From NCBI RefSeq assembly GCF_004297265.1, contig NZ_SCUT01000009.1, positions 62,001-126,000 of the forward strand: a stretch of DNA of 64,000 nucleotides, in the 5' to 3' direction. Origin of the DNA: Reyranella sp. (GTDB taxonomy: Bacteria > Pseudomonadota > Alphaproteobacteria > Reyranellales > Reyranellaceae). Both the position numbers and the translations under genes were made by a program. Positions 18,104-55,386 of the stretch are shown here, in pieces. The notes under the pieces are model-generated. The model was not told the origin of the DNA. It did no database searches and saw nothing but the letters and a program-made list of their open reading frames with translations. How positions within the stretch are numbered: position 1 is the stretch's first letter; each line of letters begins with the position of its first letter.

Positions 18104-20308
18104 ATGAAATTCGACACGCCCGCCACCACCAATCCCATCGACCGGCTGAAGATCGTCGGCCTTCCGACCGACCGTATCGACGGACCGTTGAAGACCACCG
18201 GCACCGCGCCCTATGCCTATGAACGCCACGACGTGGCGCCCGACGCGGCCTACGGGCATGTGCTGGGCGCCGCGATCGCCAAGGGCCGCATCGCCTCGAT
18301 GGATCTCACGGCCGCCTGGGCCGCGCCCGGCGTGCTGGCCGTCGTCACGGCGGAGAATGCCGGCAAGCTCGGCAAGGGCGAGTACAACACCGCCAAGCTG
18401 CTGGGCGGGCCCGAGATCGAGCACTATCACCAGGCCGTCGCGCTGGTGGTCGCCGAGACCTTCGAGCAGGCCCGCCACGCGGCCGAGCTGATCAAGGTCG
18501 ACTATGCGCCGGCCAGGGGCGCCTACGACCTCGCGGCGTCCCGCGATTCCGCCAAGCCCGCCGGCAAGGACGAGGAGCCGGCCGACAGCCGTGTCGGCGA
18601 TTTCGACGCAGCCTTCGCCGCCGCACCCGTACAGCTCGACGCGACCTACACCACGCCCGACCAGTCGCATGCGATGATGGAGCCGCACGCCAGCATCGCC
18701 GCCTGGAACGGCGACCGGCTTTCGCTCTGGACCTCGAACCAGATGATCGCCTGGAGCGTCGGCGACGTGGCGAAGACGCTGGGCATCGCGAAGGAGAAGG
18801 TCCACCTGATGTCGCCCTATATCGGCGGCGGCTTCGGCGGCAAGCTGTGGGTGCGCGCCGACGCGCTGCTGGCGGCGCTGGGCGCGCGCGCGGCGAAGCG
18901 GCCGGTCAAGGTGGCGCTGCAGCGGCCGCTGATGATCAACAACACCACGCACCGGCCGGCCACGATCCAGCGCATCCGTCTGGGCGCCGACAAGGACGGC
19001 AGGCTGACGGCGATCGGCCATGACAGCTGGTCGGGCGACCTGCCCGGCGGCAAGCCGGAGACCGCGATCATGCAGACGCGGCTGCTCTATGCCGGCGCCA
19101 ACCGGCTGACGCGGCAGCGGCTGGCCGAGCTCGACCTGCCGGAAGGCAATTCGATGCGCGCGCCCGGCGAGGCGGCCGGCATGATGGCGCTCGAGATCGC
19201 GATGGACGAGATGGCCGAGAAGCTGGGCCTCGATCCGGTCGAGTTCCGCATCCGCAACGACACGCAGGTCGATCCCGAACAGCCGGAGCGCAAGTTCTCG
19301 CAGCGCCAGCTCACCGAATGCCTGCGCACCGGCGCCGAGCGCTTCGGCTGGGCCCGGCGCAAGGCCGAGCCCCGGCAGGTTCGCGACGGGCGTTGGCTCG
19401 TGGGCCTCGGCATGGCGGCCGCCTATCGCGGATCGCCGGTGATCAAGTCGGGCGCGCGGGTGCGGCTAGACGGCAAGGGCACCGTCACCGTCGAGACCGA
19501 CATGACCGACATCGGCACCGGCAGCTACACGATCATCGCCCAGACCGCCGCCGAGATGATGGGCGTGCCGCTCGACAAGGTGGTGGTGCGGCTGGGCGAT
19601 TCGGCCTTCCCGGTGTCGTCGGGCTCGGGCGGGCAGTTCGGCGGCAATTCCTCGACCGCGGGCGTCTACGCCGCCTGCGTGAAGCTGCGCGAGGCTGTGA
19701 CGGCAAAACTCGGCCTCAACGCCGCCGATGCGCAGTTCGCGGACGGCCAGGTCCGCTCGGGCGATCGTTCCATCGCACTCGCCGAGGCGGCCAGGAGCGG
19801 CGAACTGGCGGCCGAGGATGCGATCGAGTTCGGCGGGCTCGACAAGAAGCATCAGCTCTCGACCTTCGGCGGTCATTTCGTCGAGGTCGCGGTCGATGCC
19901 GCCACGGCCGAGGTGCGGATCCGGCGCATGCTGGCCGTCTGCGCCTCGGGCCGCATCCTCAACCCGAAATCGGCGCGCAGCCAGGTGATCGGGGCCATGA
20001 CCATGGGCGCGGGCGCGGCGCTGATGGAGGATCTGGTGGTCGACAAGCGCCACGGCTTCTTCGTCAACCACGACCTCGCTTCCTACGAGGTGCCGGTCCA
20101 TGCCGACATCCCGCACCAGGAGGTGATCTTCCTCGACGAGACCGATCCGATGTCGTCGCCGATGAAGGCCAAGGGCGTCGGCGAACTGGGCATCTGCGGC
20201 GTCGCCGCCGCCGTCGCCAACGCGATCTACAACGCCACCGGCGTCCGGGTCCGCGACTATCCGATCACGCTCGACAAGCTCTTGGAGAAGATGCCGGACG
20301 TGGGGTGA
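18104..20308 (+). CDS. paoC: Periplasmic aldehyde oxidoreductase, molybdenum subunit
   Basis: A 734-residue protein, nearly the same length as E. coli PaoC (732). It contains Gly-Gly-Gly-Phe-Gly-Gly-Lys near 245-252 and the catalytic Glu694 in Lys-Gly-Val-Gly-Glu-Leu-Gly, matching E. coli Glu692. It oxidises aldehydes to acids at a molybdopterin-cytosine-dinucleotide centre; aromatic aldehydes are preferred in E. coli, and detoxification is the likely role. The maturation protein PaoD (XdhC-like), which follows paoC in E. coli, is missing here: the next sequence is an intergenic repeat with an IS110 insertion. The cofactor-inserting chaperone must be elsewhere. Confidence 0.95.
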   Translation: MKFDTPATTNPIDRLKIVGLPTDRIDGPLKTTGTAPYAYERHDVAPDAAYGHVLGAAIAKGRIASMDLTAAWAAPGVLAVVTAENAGKLGKGEYNTAKLLGGPEIEHYHQAVALVVAETFEQARHAAELIKVDYAPARGAYDLAASRDSAKPAGKDEEPADSRVGDFDAAFAAAPVQLDATYTTPDQSHAMMEPHASIAAWNGDRLSLWTSNQMIAWSVGDVAKTLGIAKEKVHLMSPYIGGGFGGKLWVRADALLAALGARAAKRPVKVALQRPLMINNTTHRPATIQRIRLGADKDGRLTAIGHDSWSGDLPGGKPETAIMQTRLLYAGANRLTRQRLAELDLPEGNSMRAPGEAAGMMALEIAMDEMAEKLGLDPVEFRIRNDTQVDPEQPERKFSQRQLTECLRTGAERFGWARRKAEPRQVRDGRWLVGLGMAAAYRGSPVIKSGARVRLDGKGTVTVETDMTDIGTGSYTIIAQTAAEMMGVPLDKVVVRLGDSAFPVSSGSGGQFGGNSSTAGVYAACVKLREAVTAKLGLNAADAQFADGQVRSGDRSIALAEAARSGELAAEDAIEFGGLDKKHQLSTFGGHFVEVAVDAATAEVRIRRMLAVCASGRILNPKSARSQVIGAMTMGAGAALMEDLVVDKRHGFFVNHDLASYEVPVHADIPHQEVIFLDETDPMSSPMKAKGVGELGICGVAAAVANAIYNATGVRVRDYPITLDKLLEKMPDVG

Positions 20309-20356: not shown

Positions 20357-20458
20357 CCTCACCCTGAGGAGCATCGCGCAGCGATGCGTCTCGAAGGGTG
20401 GGAACGCGCACCTTGCCTGTTGCCCATCCTTCGAGACGCGCCGCTTCGCGGCGCTCCT
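20357..20458. repeat. Left part of an intergenic inverted repeat interrupted by IS110
   Basis: CCTCACCCTGAGGAGC ... GCGTCTCGAAGGGTGGG is followed by the inverted partner CCCATCCTTCGAGACGCG ... GGCGCTCCT, which is cut by the IS and continues as CAGGATGAGG at 21582-21591. Rejoining the two sides gives a complete, nearly symmetric element of about 110 bases. Confidence 0.75.
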
Positions 20459-21581
20459 TGTATCAAGGGACGGCCGCGCCGGCGTAGAGTTGCGGGTGCG
20501 GTCTCGGTGGAGAGCCCGGAGGCTCCTGGGGCCAGCAAGCCCGTTCCTGAGCTCGGCGCCTCCACCGTTGATTTTGTGATCCCGAACGGTCGCCTGGGCC
20601 GAACCGCGAGCCCGCATGCGCAAGGATGGGAGCCAAGATCCATGTTCGTTGGCATCGATGTGGCGAAAGATCGCCTGGATGTTCATGTGCGCCCCGCCGG
20701 TGAGGCCTTCACCGTTGCCCGTGACGGAGAAGGCATCGAGGATCTGGTTGGGCGGTTGAGTAAAATGGTGCCCGCTCTGATCGTGCTCGAAGCAACCGGT
20801 GGCTTCGAGACGATCGTGGCGGCAGGTCTGGGCGCGGCGGGCCTGCCTGTGGCGGTCGTCAATCCCCGGCAGATCAGGGACTTCGCTCGGGCCACCGCGC
20901 GCCTGGCCAAGACCGATGCCCTGGATGCTGCTGTCATCGCCCACTTCGCCGAGGCGGTGAACCCACCGGCGCGGCCGCTCGCCGACGAGCAGTCCAGGTT
21001 GTTGGGCGAACTGATGGCGCGCCGCCGTCAGCTCATCGAGATGATTGGCGCCGAGAGCAACCGCCGACGCATGCTCACCGTGCGGCGCACCCTGAAGACC
21101 GTCGATCGCGTGCTGGCCACCTTGAAGACCCAGCTCCAACAGATCGACGACGACATCGACAGTGCCGTCCGGGGAACCCCGGCCTGGCGCGAGGCCGAGG
21201 ATCTTCTCGTCAGCGTTCCCGGCATTGGCCCCAGGATTGCTCGCACCCTGATCGCCGAGCTGCCTGAACTGGGCCGCCTTGGCCGCCGTGAGATCGCGTC
21301 CCTGACCGGCGTCGCCCCGTTCAATCGCGACAGCGGCACCTTGCGGGGCCGCCGTACCATCGCAGGCGGACGGCCTGTCGTGCGGGCCGCCCTCTACATG
21401 AGCATCCTCGTATCCATCCGCCGCAAGCTGCCGCTGGCCCTCACCTATCACCGCCTGCGCGCTGCCGGAAAGCCAGCCAAGGTCGCCATCGTCGCCTGCA
21501 TGCGCAAGCTCGTCACCATCCTCAACGCCATCCTCAGGGACAGAAACCATGGGCAAACGCTTGACCGCCACGACGGTCGCT
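20459..21581 (+). mobile_element. IS110-family insertion sequence
   Basis: About 1123 bases. The left boundary follows GGCGCTCCT (20450-20458) and the right boundary precedes CAGGATGAGG (21582-21591), judged from the interrupted repeat. A CT dinucleotide stands at both borders (20457-20458 and 21580-21581), as expected for the IS110 core. No terminal inverted repeats or long target duplications are present, which is normal for this family. A 183-base non-coding left end precedes the transposase and shows bridge-RNA-like features. Confidence 0.85.
20495..20641 (+). ncRNA. Predicted IS110 bridge RNA (limits approximate)
   Basis: A stem CGGTGGAG (20505-20512) / CTCCACCG (20560-20567) closes a loop. 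In it GCTCCT (20522-20527) equals the top strand left of and through the insertion core, and TCCTGAG (20545-20551) is the reverse complement of CTCAGGA on the right of it. This is the layout of the left and right target guides. After the loop, ACGGTCGC (20586-20593) equals the element's right end (21573-21580), as a left donor guide would; CAAG at 20621-20624 could begin the right donor guide (CTTG at the left end), but that match is short. Structure and function are predicted from the IS621 model. Confidence 0.6.
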
Positions 21582-21589
21582 CAGGATGA
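20642..21589 (+). CDS. IS110-family transposase (bridge recombinase)
   Basis: A 315-residue protein with the N-terminal RuvC-like DEDD_Tnp_IS110 domain: Asp6 in GIDVAKD, Glu50 in Leu-Glu-Ala-Thr-Gly-Gly, and Asp92/Asp95 in Lys-Thr-Asp-Ala-Leu-Asp. The C-terminal Transposase_20 domain has Ser-Val-Pro-Gly-Ile-Gly-Pro and the likely nucleophile Ser231 in Arg-Asp-Ser-Gly-Thr. It recombines the element at CT-core sites using a guide RNA from its left end. The last codons run across the right border, so the stop codon (21587-21589) is supplied by the target repeat. No frameshift is seen; the copy looks intact. Confidence 0.93.
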   Translation: MFVGIDVAKDRLDVHVRPAGEAFTVARDGEGIEDLVGRLSKMVPALIVLEATGGFETIVAAGLGAAGLPVAVVNPRQIRDFARATARLAKTDALDAAVIAHFAEAVNPPARPLADEQSRLLGELMARRRQLIEMIGAESNRRRMLTVRRTLKTVDRVLATLKTQLQQIDDDIDSAVRGTPAWREAEDLLVSVPGIGPRIARTLIAELPELGRLGRREIASLTGVAPFNRDSGTLRGRRTIAGGRPVVRAALYMSILVSIRRKLPLALTYHRLRAAGKPAKVAIVACMRKLVTILNAILRDRNHGQTLDRHDGRSG

Positions 21590-21597
21590 GGCCGCTC

Positions 21598-22563
21598 TCA
21601 CCCCACCACGCACTTCGACGGCGGCGGCACGTCGTCGAGCACGTAGAAGATGTTCTCGACCGCCTGCACGGCGACACGCTCCAGCGACTGGCGGGTCGAG
21701 CCGCCGATATGCGGCGTGAAGACCACGTTCTTCTGCTTCCACAACGGATGGTTCGGATCGGGCGGCTCGACCACGAACGTGTCGAGCGCCGCACCGGCGA
21801 GATGGCCGCTCTCCAGCGCCGCCACGAGGGCCACGTCGTCGACCAGCGGGCCGCGGCCGGCATTCACCAGGAACGTGCCCTTGCGCATGCGGGCGAGCGC
21901 CGCCGCGTCGATCATGCGGTCGGTCTCCTCGGTCAGCGGACAATGCAAGGTGACGATGTCCGCCCACTCCAGCAGATCGTCGAGGACGGAAACGCGGCCG
22001 ACACCCTCGGGGATTGCGTCCGGCGCGATGTACGGATCGTAGATCCGGATCTCAAGATCGAACGGCTGGCAGAGCGCGACCAGCGAGGAGCCGACGGCGC
22101 CGCAGCCGACGATGCCCAGCTTCGAGCCCGACAGTTCGCGGCCCATGAAGGCCGATTGCGACCAGGTGCCCTGCTTCAGCGCCGTGTCGAACGGCACCAT
22201 GTAGCGCAGCACGGAGATCATCATGCCCAGCGCCAGCTCGGCCACCGAGCGCGCATTGGCGCCGTGGGTGCGCAGCACCGCGATGCCGCGCTCACTGGCC
22301 GCCGCGACATCGATATTGTCGTAACCGACCCCGTGCTTGGACACGACGCGAAGGTCCGGCGCGGCGTCATAGACGGCCGGCGTGATCTTGGTGGTCCGCA
22401 CCAGGATCGCATGCGTCGGCGCCTCCGCCACCGCCGCGATCATCTCGGCCTCGGACGCGTGCGTCGGCAAGGTCCGGATCTGCGCCCCGCGCGCCTCAAG
22501 CAACGCCAGCGCCGCCGGCGCCAGCACGTCAGAATTGATGATGATCCGCGGCCCGTTCCTCAT
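21598..22563 (-). CDS. D-2-hydroxyacid dehydrogenase (phosphoglycerate dehydrogenase-like)
   Basis: A 321-residue protein. The Rossmann motif Gly-Ile-Val-Gly-Cys-Gly-Ala-Val-Gly-Ser lies at 150-159, and the catalytic triad is Arg237 (Asn-Ala-Gly-Arg-Gly), Glu266 (Val-Val-Glu-Pro) and His285 (Thr-Pro-His-Ile-Gly-Gly-Ser). It is NAD-dependent and has no ACT or serine-feedback domain, so it is the short type; the substrate may be a hydroxypyruvate or another 2-keto acid rather than 3-phosphoglycerate. It stands alone, with a G-rich upstream region. Confidence 0.9.
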   Translation of the reverse strand: MRNGPRIIINSDVLAPAALALLEARGAQIRTLPTHASEAEMIAAVAEAPTHAILVRTTKITPAVYDAAPDLRVVSKHGVGYDNIDVAAASERGIAVLRTHGANARSVAELALGMMISVLRYMVPFDTALKQGTWSQSAFMGRELSGSKLGIVGCGAVGSSLVALCQPFDLEIRIYDPYIAPDAIPEGVGRVSVLDDLLEWADIVTLHCPLTEETDRMIDAAALARMRKGTFLVNAGRGPLVDDVALVAALESGHLAGAALDTFVVEPPDPNHPLWKQKNVVFTPHIGGSTRQSLERVAVQAVENIFYVLDDVPPPSKCVVG

Positions 22564-22850: not shown

Positions 22851-24344
22851 ATGCTGAATGAAGATCTTGCGTCTCTTCTCTTGCCAATCGGTCACGATAC
22901 GGCAAACGCCTCATACGATCCAGAAACCTTTCACGTTCTCCATCCAGCTCTCAAGAAAGAAGATTCTCCAACAATCTTCTCCCTATTACATGAATGCGTT
23001 CATGTCATTCAACATAGTTGTACTTCAACGGGCATTCACGACGTAATTGCGAAAGCGACGCGAGATCAAAACGTCGAAACGTTCATAAAAAGCGCTTCAA
23101 TAGATTTTGATTTGTATCCCGGGCACAAGTCTTGGTTCGGCTTGTACAGGCACCGATCAAGTCCAGATTTTTATCGCAACACCGTTAGATCAAAAGATGG
23201 ACTAAGCCTTCAAGCGTTTATAGATATTTGGTATTCGAATTTTCTCGCTGATAGATTTCGCCACGATCCGATTGCTGTGGCCAAATTGGCAAAGCGCTAT
23301 GACCCTCGTTACGAAGACCCATTTGTAGCGCTTCTACTGAGTCAAGCGAAGCAGCTTGTATTTGCGCAACACCGGTGGGCGCCAGCCTTTTTCGATCCAT
23401 CTGAAGACTACACCTTCGATGACTACAATGCCCAAGCATTTGAGTCGTATATTAAGAGCCAGCAGATATGGTGGCCTGGGTCAGCGGAACAAAAAGTACT
23501 TTCATCCCGGTTGTTGTACGAGGCTTGGGCATGCGCCATCGAAATGCTTCACATGAAGCGCTTAGGGTTAAACTGGGAATGGTTGAAGCGGTACCAAGAA
23601 ATATTGAATTCTGAATACAAATATTTTTTTCAATGGGTTGAGAAGAATTTTATTACCTTAGTTGGCGTCGACATACTCGAAGAGCCGCTCATTCTTTTGG
23701 ATTTAGCGATCATGTGCGAGCTGGCTCTTAATCCTCGCAATGCACCTTTCGTGAAAGAGATGTTTTCGGAAGGTATAACCAAACTTAATCCTCCATCGCG
23801 ATTTGCGACTTTGAATAAGCATGCTCGTGTCGTCTGGGACACTATCGGCAGCCCCAAAACCCTTGGAATAGACGAAATTAAATCGCGCGTTCGCACCTGG
23901 CGTTCACGCGCAAGCTTTAATTGCGTCGAGCTTCAAGAATTATCTGGATTGCAACTTAAGGAACAGTACAAAGGACGCTTAGGCTACGCTGGCATTGAAC
24001 TCTTGCTATCTTACAAGGATCAACTTTTCTCAGCGAATCCAACAGCAGAATCTGTCACCGAAATCATTCTTTCTGAGAATTTTTTGGCAAGCAGACCGCC
24101 ACTAGCTATCTACAAGTATGATCAAGAAGAAGAATATACCTTCTCCGAACAATGCTTCCCAAGCCAAGAGATCTTAATCAAAAAGGTCACAGAAATAATG
24201 TATTACAATGCAATGAAAGATTTAGTTATTGGCTTCGCTCCGATCCAATGCCTTATAGGTGGCCACTATGACCTAGAGAAAAATATTCCGGGCTTAACCC
24301 AGTTTGTCAAAAAGCAAATTACTCGTCTGACTCGTCGGCAGTGA
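22851..24344 (+). CDS. Putative zinc metallopeptidase-like protein (HExxH) in an AT-rich island
   Basis: A 497-residue protein that I do not recognise as a named family. Residues 47-51 are HECVH, followed by Val-Ile-Gln-His, i.e. an HExxH zinc motif in a predicted helix after Ile-Phe-Ser-Leu-Leu. A Glu in Leu-Tyr-Glu-Ala-Trp-Ala-Cys-Ala-Ile-Glu (about 224-233) could be the third ligand. No signal peptide or clear membrane segment is visible, so it acts in the cytoplasm. Codon and base use differ from the neighbours (AT-rich), implying transfer. It converges with, and overlaps by 26 bases, the small gene at 24319-24618. A defence or conflict role is inference from composition and partner. Confidence 0.6.
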   Translation: MLNEDLASLLLPIGHDTANASYDPETFHVLHPALKKEDSPTIFSLLHECVHVIQHSCTSTGIHDVIAKATRDQNVETFIKSASIDFDLYPGHKSWFGLYRHRSSPDFYRNTVRSKDGLSLQAFIDIWYSNFLADRFRHDPIAVAKLAKRYDPRYEDPFVALLLSQAKQLVFAQHRWAPAFFDPSEDYTFDDYNAQAFESYIKSQQIWWPGSAEQKVLSSRLLYEAWACAIEMLHMKRLGLNWEWLKRYQEILNSEYKYFFQWVEKNFITLVGVDILEEPLILLDLAIMCELALNPRNAPFVKEMFSEGITKLNPPSRFATLNKHARVVWDTIGSPKTLGIDEIKSRVRTWRSRASFNCVELQELSGLQLKEQYKGRLGYAGIELLLSYKDQLFSANPTAESVTEIILSENFLASRPPLAIYKYDQEEEYTFSEQCFPSQEILIKKVTEIMYYNAMKDLVIGFAPIQCLIGGHYDLEKNIPGLTQFVKKQITRLTRRQ

Positions 24345-54396: not shown

Positions 54397-55386
54397 CTAC
54401 TCGGCCTTGATACCGATCTCCTTCATCACCTTCAGCATGATCTCGGTGTCTCGCTTGAAGACCTTGTTGGTCGCTTCGAAATCAAGCGGGCCGACGATCA
54501 GGTAATTGGCCATCAGCGCCTTCACCTTCTCGTCTGTGCCGGCTTCGAACAGCGTGTCCGAGAGCTTCTTCACGATGTCCTTCGGCGTCGCCGCCGGGAC
54601 AGCGAAGACGGCGAAGGCCCGCGTCTCGTAGAAGCCGCCGACCGCGCCCTGCTCCACCATCGTCGCCACGCCGGGAAAGGCCGGAAGACGGTCGCCCATC
54701 ATGGCGATGGCCCGGCCCTTGCCGGAGGCGATCACCGCCGCCGCACCGGCGGGACTGCCCGCCGCGCCGTCGAGCGCCTGGGCCGCGACGTCGGCGAACA
54801 TCGCCGCCTCGCCGCGATACTGCACGACCTCGACCTTGAACCCGTACTGCCTGGCCATCGTCTCGATCAGCATCTGCGGCGTCGAGCCGGGTCCGTAGGC
54901 GCCGAAGTTCAACTTGTCGACCTTCTTGGCATACTCGAGGAACTGCTTGAGGTTGGTCGCGCCGGTCTTCTCGGCCGCCACGACCGGGCCGCCCAGGCTG
55001 GTCGTCATGGCGAGATAGGTGAAGTCCTTCTCCGGATCGTACGGCAGGTCCTTCACCGTGACCCGGTTCTGGATCAGCGACGAGGAGATGGTGCAGAGGA
55101 TGGTGTAGCCGTCCGGGGGTGCGCGCTTCACCTCGGCCACGCCGATCGTGCCGCCGGCGCCACCCTTGTTCTCGACCACCACCGACTGGCCGAGCTTGCG
55201 GCCGAGATACTCGCCATAGACACGCGCGATGCCGTCGGTCTGCCCGCCCGCCGGATATGGCACGATGATGCGGATCGGCTTGGTCGGGAACGCACCCTGC
55301 GCCCGCGACGACGTGGTGAAAAGAGCCGGCGCCGCAAGGGCGCCCGCACTCGCAACAATGAGCCCGCGACGAGTCGGTGTCCGCAT
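54397..55386 (-). CDS. Bug-family tricarboxylate transporter binding protein (second copy)
   Basis: A 329-residue periplasmic protein with a signal to about residue 28 (Arg-Arg-Gly-Leu-Ile-Val-Ala-Ser). Family features: Phe-Pro-Thr-Lys-Pro-Ile-Arg-Ile-Ile-Val-Pro-Tyr-Pro-Ala-Gly-Gly-Gln, Pro-Asp-Gly-Tyr-Thr-Ile. Only distantly similar to the 24971 copy, so it likely binds another carboxylate. No membrane components nearby. ATG 55386 chosen; GTG 55389 adds one residue. Confidence 0.92.
   Translation of the reverse strand: MRTPTRRGLIVASAGALAAPALFTTSSRAQGAFPTKPIRIIVPYPAGGQTDGIARVYGEYLGRKLGQSVVVENKGGAGGTIGVAEVKRAPPDGYTILCTISSSLIQNRVTVKDLPYDPEKDFTYLAMTTSLGGPVVAAEKTGATNLKQFLEYAKKVDKLNFGAYGPGSTPQMLIETMARQYGFKVEVVQYRGEAAMFADVAAQALDGAAGSPAGAAAVIASGKGRAIAMMGDRLPAFPGVATMVEQGAVGGFYETRAFAVFAVPAATPKDIVKKLSDTLFEAGTDEKVKALMANYLIVGPLDFEATNKVFKRDTEIMLKVMKEIGIKAE

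Follow-up and report, generated by a model that had tools for sequence, protein, structure and literature searches.

Left end of a Reyranella IS110-group element very probably encodes a bridge RNA guiding insertion into REP-like palindromes

The window, a stretch of 64,000 nucleotides of Reyranella DNA, carries an IS110-group element at 20459-21581 (plus strand), and the left end of this element very probably encodes a bridge RNA that guides insertion into REP-like palindromes. The guides, the fold, the co-variation, the promoter motif at the junction and the REP site can all be read from the DNA itself. The boundaries of the element include the right-hand copy of the CT core, which flanks it on both sides (20457-20458 on the left and 21580-21581 on the right). 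When the flanks are rejoined, a REP unit is restored: the left part of the interrupted palindrome (20423-20458, plus strand) contains the left target GGCGCTC and the core CT, the right part (21582-21591, plus strand) contains the right target CAGGATGAGG, and the rejoined flanks read ...CGCGGCGCTC-CT-CAGGATGAGG (...GGCGCTC-CT-CAGGATGAGG), one shoulder of the palindromic repeat. The non-coding left end is 183 bases long (20459-20641), and the ATG of the recombinase gene stands at 20642. This left end had been delimited in the first-pass annotation, and all coordinates and motifs given there were confirmed by direct reading of the sequence. The same left end was found at 17 further distinct flanks, the remnant L163 being excluded. 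A copy occurs in the strain Reyranella aquatilis KCTC 52223. The element sits between two convergent genes, one for a molybdopterin-binding dehydrogenase (18104-20308) and one for a 2-hydroxyacid dehydrogenase (21598-22563, minus strand). An open reading frame of 497 amino acids at 22851-24344 gave no Pfam match at E 0.001.

REP units were searched with the pattern CGAGACG-(6-24)-CTCCTCAGG. In this genome 80 intact matches were detected, and the reversed control gave 0; among 65 Reyranella genomes, 63 contained the pattern, and the reversed control gave three matches in two genomes. A second REP unit, in inverted orientation, adjoins the interrupted one at 20357-20402, and such inverted pairs recur genome-wide.

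The predicted bridge RNA extends from 20473 to 20636 on the plus strand, on which all its parts described below also lie; its ends were placed from the promoter position and the alignment with IS621. When 20470-20641 is folded (z -2.31, with 3 of 200 shuffles doing equally well), a 5' stem-loop is predicted together with loops for target and donor; in the minimum-energy structure the stem-loop lies at 20472-20503. The target-binding loop (20505-20567) is closed by CGGTGGAG at 20505-20512 and CTCCACCG at 20560-20567, both present where they had been reported. With G48 taken as landmark, the left target guide comprises 8 nucleotides, AGGCTCCT (20520-20527), of which the last six bases match the element's own target; positions 2 and 3 of the guide are mismatched, giving 6 of 8, while the right target guide TCCTGAG (20545-20551), complementary to CTCAGGA, matches at 7 of 7 with the core included. 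The donor-binding loop (20573-20636) was located by the landmarks, the fold and the covariance model. Its left donor guide, ACGGTCGC at 20586-20593, is identical with the right end of the element at 21573-21580 (8 of 8), as the first-pass annotation had noted. The right donor guide had been described there as only weakly visible (CAAG). This description does not hold, since the complete pattern of IS621, AT-GC-G-CAAG, is found at 20616-20624 (AT at 20616-20617, then GC, G at 20620 and CAAG at 20621-20624). Its partner in this discontiguous pairing is CT-TGTAT, the right donor that IS621 also has, and the fourth guide is thus complete. Of the four handshake bases, three fit: C20552 of the target loop (20552-20553) fits the G at donor position 7, T20553 misfits position 6, and GA in the donor loop (20625-20626) fits the C at target position 7 and the T at position 6. 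A Shine-Dalgarno-like stretch GGGAG (20628-20632), 9 bases ahead of the ATG, falls within the 3' portion of the donor loop; judged from this placement, folding of the bridge RNA could affect translation of the recombinase. A search of the window against Rfam at gathering thresholds matched no curated family.

As a control we used a copy of IS621 from an E. coli plasmid, together with the base-by-base landmarks of its bridge RNA given in PMC11208158. In this copy A43, G48, A67, G72, A116, G121, A150 and G155 fall at the published numbers, as do the guides ATCGGGCCT, GTAG, ACAGTATC and AT-TT-G-CAAG. The counterparts of the eight landmarks in the window are A20513, G20518, A20538, G20543, A20579, G20584, A20609 and G20614. 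The two elements are alike in the homology of their recombinases, in a left-end RNA built of a 5' stem-loop and of loops for target and donor, in the landmark A and G bases, in the left donor guide of 8 nucleotides, in the identical right donor CT-TGTAT with the same right-guide pattern, and in the CT core, the junction promoter and the use of REP targets. In contrast to IS621, the left target guide of the window element is one base shorter by landmark and matches consistently only over its last five bases; the right target guide pairs over 5 + 2 bases, whereas that of IS621 is given as 2 + 2; the right end is shorter; and a different REP family is used. According to PMC11208160, the right-guide pairing of IS621 can extend to 7, and some orthologues have longer right guides. 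Among solved structures, IS621 (8wt6, E 6.1e-31) and ISCro4 (9t56, E 7.2e-34) were the two distinct sequences matched by the recombinase at E up to 0.01, ISCro4 being the closest in a comparison of protein sequence only.

Assignment to the IS110 group of IS621-like elements agrees with a recombinase that combines a DEDD RuvC-like domain and a Tnp domain with its catalytic serine, with the bridge RNA in a left non-coding end that is longer than the right end, with target-loop guides that match the element's own target, with donor guides that match its own ends, and with the handshake bases. The IS1111 group, with its seekRNA elements, belongs to the same broad family and shows RNA-guided choice of target (PMC11187229), and its RNA is located in the right end (PMC11208160). 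In the Reyranella element, unlike that group, the RNA features are in the left end and the recombinase gene runs to the right end; membership in the IS1111 group by a long right-end bridge RNA was accordingly rejected. Bridge RNAs have been predicted in 85.7% of IS110s (PMC11208160). IS110 elements that target REPs were already catalogued in 2006 (PMC1525189). Among them is ISRm19 of Sinorhizobium meliloti, for which a table of that paper gives 4 of 4 copies in REPs; ISRm19 resembles the present element by its description, as an IS110 element in REPs of an alphaproteobacterium.

Conservation of the two-loop fold among homologues, which the first-pass annotation had made decisive for its reading, was borne out by compensatory changes and by matches to a covariance model. 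RNAalifold analysis of 16 related left ends gave a structure of 29 pairs, 12 of which show changes on both sides, and 95.5% of the 463 alignment cells are paired. The covariation score was 0.325, as compared with 0.137 for shuffled alignments (0 of 500 reach it) and at most 0.087 when the structure was slid. The changes on both sides are located in the helices of the target loop (in its closing helix 10 of 11 pairs change on both sides in some row), and the donor-loop helices are nearly invariant. The covariance model R1, consisting of the two loops and 16 rows, matched all 53 distant loci searched; these 53 were taken from 80 loci, 13 of the others being rows of the model and 14 being omitted as near-duplicate, truncated or not chosen. 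R1 also matched IS621 at the right place (337-482 of locus L160), weakly, with E 0.011 under a rough calibration. A second match in the window, at 55277-55369 (E 0.87), was taken as chance.

Copies of the element were surveyed in nine Reyranella genomes, chosen from a search in which six candidates per genome were scored, so that copy numbers are lower bounds; one genome with multiple copies is G005. In all, 19 distinct left flanks and 23 right flanks of the lineage were collected from Reyranella genomes, the window being counted in both; eight additional right flanks belong to more distant elements outside the lineage count. If the reading was correct, other copies with this left end were expected at sites matching the guides, and this was largely the case: 17 of the 19 left flanks end with CTCCT inside a REP, and 21 of the 23 right flanks start with CAGGA (16) or CAGGG (5). 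Four copies deviate. The left flank of L115 (G031:C448), ATTGACCCT, reads ATTGACC-CT with no REP nearby; this copy lies at a contig end of a genome given as 77% complete, and 73 bases of the element are present. L163 (G062:C5:11230-11254) is a remnant of 25 bases of the left end beside a REP, with the flank CTCTT and the rest of the element absent, and the right flank of L110 is CAAGA where others have CAGGA. In L126 the right flank is CAGCA and its own right guide is TGCTGAG in place of TCCTGAG, each altered to match the other, indicating that guide and flank changed together. This one-base change of guide and flank (TGCTGAG with CTCAGCA) belongs to L126 / L083 / L002 (G031:C437). Left and right flanks of one copy could seldom be paired because most copies end at contig ends.

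The left target guide was readable in 17 copies, L124 (too short) and the remnant L163 being omitted. Positions 1 to 4 are matched in 10, 2, 7 and 8 of these, and positions 5 to 9 in 16 or 17; when L163 is kept, the tally becomes 10, 2, 7, 9, 16, 16, 17, 17 and 17 of 18. Of the guide GCTCCT (20522-20527) proposed earlier, CTCCT is therefore matched consistently, but its first G, at position 4, finds a match in no more than 8 copies. The outer positions lie opposite the palindrome's stem, and this stem varies between REP units. Related elements with other guides were seen in two genomes. In G001, of the same genus, the left ends L148 and L149 carry the right guide GGGAGAG, and the right ends L088, L131 and L137 have the corresponding flank CT-CTCCC, left and right ends being on separate contigs or at contig ends. 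L086 (G003:C31, minus strand) has the right guide TCCTCAG and the flanks CCTCATC-CT-GAGGAG, using the same REP shoulder as the window lineage on the opposite strand.

Co-variation of guides and targets was then analysed among 80 related loci. After omission of four truncated loci (L010, L045, L062, L073) and addition of the window, 77 were examined; L024, L048 and L080 had no recognisable donor guide, leaving 74 rows, and L019, L047, L064 and L076 had no target-guide motif, leaving 70. A usable right flank was available in 65 of these 70, representing 50 distinct right guides. In the shuffle tests, guides and flanks were re-paired among loci, relatedness among the loci being ignored. The complementarity of TCCTGAG and CTCAGGA pointed out in the first-pass annotation was found to extend to relatives: over the five bases beyond the core, 223 of 250 positions pair with the locus's own flank, as compared with a mean of 71.3 and a maximum of 104 after shuffling (0 of 10,000 reach 223). 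The sixth base is unpaired, pairing in 7 of 50. Failures were observed for L011 and L012 (0 of 5 pairs) and for L040 and L058 (1 of 5). For the left target guide, 179 matches were counted in 44 rows against 107 after shuffling (0 of 2,000 reach 179); the guide was chosen as the best CT-ended 9-mer, and the same procedure was therefore applied to the shuffled targets. Matches were found at positions 1-2 in 13 of 41 and at positions 5-7 in 33-35 of 41. The right flanks of L016, L059 and L063 (Chloroflexi/Dehalococcoidia) lie at GAGCTTGTCGAA or GAGCGTGTCGAA, where the right guides pair at 5, 5 and 4 of 5 bases; by their sequence, these flanks look like another shared repeat serving as target.

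The donor guides behaved in a similar manner. The left donor guide occurs in ten types; for 64 of the 74 rows its strictly best match is with the right end of the element itself, and for the other 10 it is not. For the right donor guide, 11 of the 74 rows were lost (4 without the left end and 7 without the motif), and merging of duplicates left 55: bases 157-158 pair in 53 of 55 and bases 162-165 in 52 of 55, each level being reached in 0 of 10,000 shuffles. The rule used here, in which the conserved [CT][CT]CG preceding the guide serves as anchor, was chosen after the result of a first rule was known. That first anchor, CAAG with a fixed gap, gave 24 of 57 at one position (shuffled mean 17.8; 23 of 10,000 reach it) and was replaced because the gap length varies from 1 to 5 bases. 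Changes on the two sides are co-ordinated, donors ending AT or AA being read by AT or TT, and core plus donor CTTG, CTAG or CTCG by CAAG, CTAG or CGAG; exceptions are L011, L025, L064 and L066. Handshake position 81 fits in 56 of 58 (shuffled mean 52.3; 37 of 10,000 shuffles reach it) and position 166 in 44 of 53 (mean 38.5; 12 of 10,000), a signal that is weak because both sides are mostly constant.

These results bear on two other explanations of the guide matches. One is that they are chance words in a GC-rich stretch of 183 bases. Taken singly, the motifs are indeed not rare: when the left end was shuffled 20,000 times with its dinucleotides preserved, GCTCCT turned up in 717 shuffles, TCCTGAG in 320 and ACGGTCGC in 66. 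GCTCCT followed by TCCTGAG, however, was found in 4 and all three in order in 0 of the 20,000; moreover, dozens of loci show co-variation of this layout, by which chance is already contradicted, and we regard its probability as negligible. The other is that the recombinase protein itself recognises the shape or sequence of the REP, the likeness of the RNA being incidental or the RNA only regulating expression of the recombinase. REP units are palindromic, and a single kind of site serves nearly all close copies, so that within the lineage RNA and protein specificity are inseparable. For another element, ISPpu9, regulation by small RNAs has been described (PMC8450116). The guides, however, change along with non-REP flanks in diverged relatives, G001 of the same genus has another guide with matching flanks, and the one-base guide change of L126 matches its changed flank. 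Recognition by the protein itself is therefore considered very improbable, and guidance by the bridge RNA remains the preferred reading.

A further possibility concerns the window copy and is compatible with RNA guidance in the lineage, namely that this copy is a relic, immobile through the frame-shifted end of its gene. The DEDD recombinase gene (20642-21589, plus strand) matches PF01548 and PF02371 above cut-off, and D6, E50, D92, D95 and S231 align with catalytic-motif residues of IS621. Of the IS621 residues, D102 and S241 are named in PMC11208158. Near the 3' end (21500-21589), the gene has one base fewer than in four relatives (L083, L082, L110 and L084), and its last dozen or so residues are in another frame; because of this missing base the stop codon falls in the target REP. 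That the stop codon is normally supplied by the target REP was rejected, as it lies inside the element in 63 of 70 rows, the window being among the 70. The shifted gene end puts continued activity of this copy in doubt, and at least one match to the element was found in its own genome, where 40 of 121 candidates were scored. Against a relic, the two Pfam domains and the catalytic residues that align are all upstream of the shift, and the ends and guides are intact; the window copy may be inactive, or the frame difference may be an assembly error. A relic is a serious candidate, to which we give somewhat less than an even chance.

The promoter of the bridge RNA is predicted at the junction of the two ends. 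A -35-like hexamer TTGACC (21561-21566, plus strand) is located in the right end and a -10-like hexamer TATCAA (20461-20466, plus strand), overlapping the right donor CT-TGTAT, in the left end; when the ends are joined, the two are 17 nucleotides apart with 3 mismatches to the consensus, a promoter predicted from its motif. In 60 of 66 rows, the best -35/-10 pair spanning the joined ends shows no more than 4 mismatches, a best-of-window score taken unshuffled and with duplicates included. In 38 of these 66 rows, the window copy not being among them, the TGA that ends the recombinase gene falls inside the -35 box. The term 'stop codon' is absent from the main text of the bridge-RNA paper PMC11208160, and our literature search found no paper joining the IS110 stop codon, the circle junction and the promoter.

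From the precedent of IS621 we infer transcription, circle formation and catalysis in the following form. The right and left ends would join in an excised circle, by which the sigma-70-like promoter TTGACC-17-TATCAA would be rebuilt and the bridge RNA transcribed from it. The second (donor) loop would read the element's own joined ends, ACGGTCG-CT-TGTAT, and the DEDD/serine recombinase would use both loops and exchange strands at the CT core, the element thereby being inserted in the conserved shoulder of the REP-like palindromes, which have 80 intact matches in this genome. More tentatively, and with rather less confidence than doubt, we suggest that target reading has been re-centred on the core in the REP-hunting branch: the outer left guide would be unmatched because it faces the hyper-variable REP stem, the right guide would read past the core by five bases, the window lineage and L086 of G003, which have diverged, would read the same shoulder from opposite strands, and the TGA in the -35 box of many relatives would pack gene end, promoter and donor site into about 30 bases.

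The first-pass annotation had taken the element as support for the bridge-RNA mechanism in this lineage. The layout, the fold and the match to the element's own site hold in independent copies, but the implied novelty does not: the mechanism, the junction promoter and the targeting of REPs by IS621 are all described in PMC11208160, and the Reyranella element opens no new mechanism in a family for which bridge RNAs are already published. A literature search on Reyranella insertion sequences found nothing relevant. What the analysis provides is an independent reproduction, from public genomes, of the published bridge-RNA rules in a lineage remote from E. coli; it extends to the discontiguous right donor guide and, with weaker signs, to the handshake bases. 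With their many REP units and their IS110 elements with differing guides, the Reyranella genomes form a natural set for the study of guide drift and retargeting.
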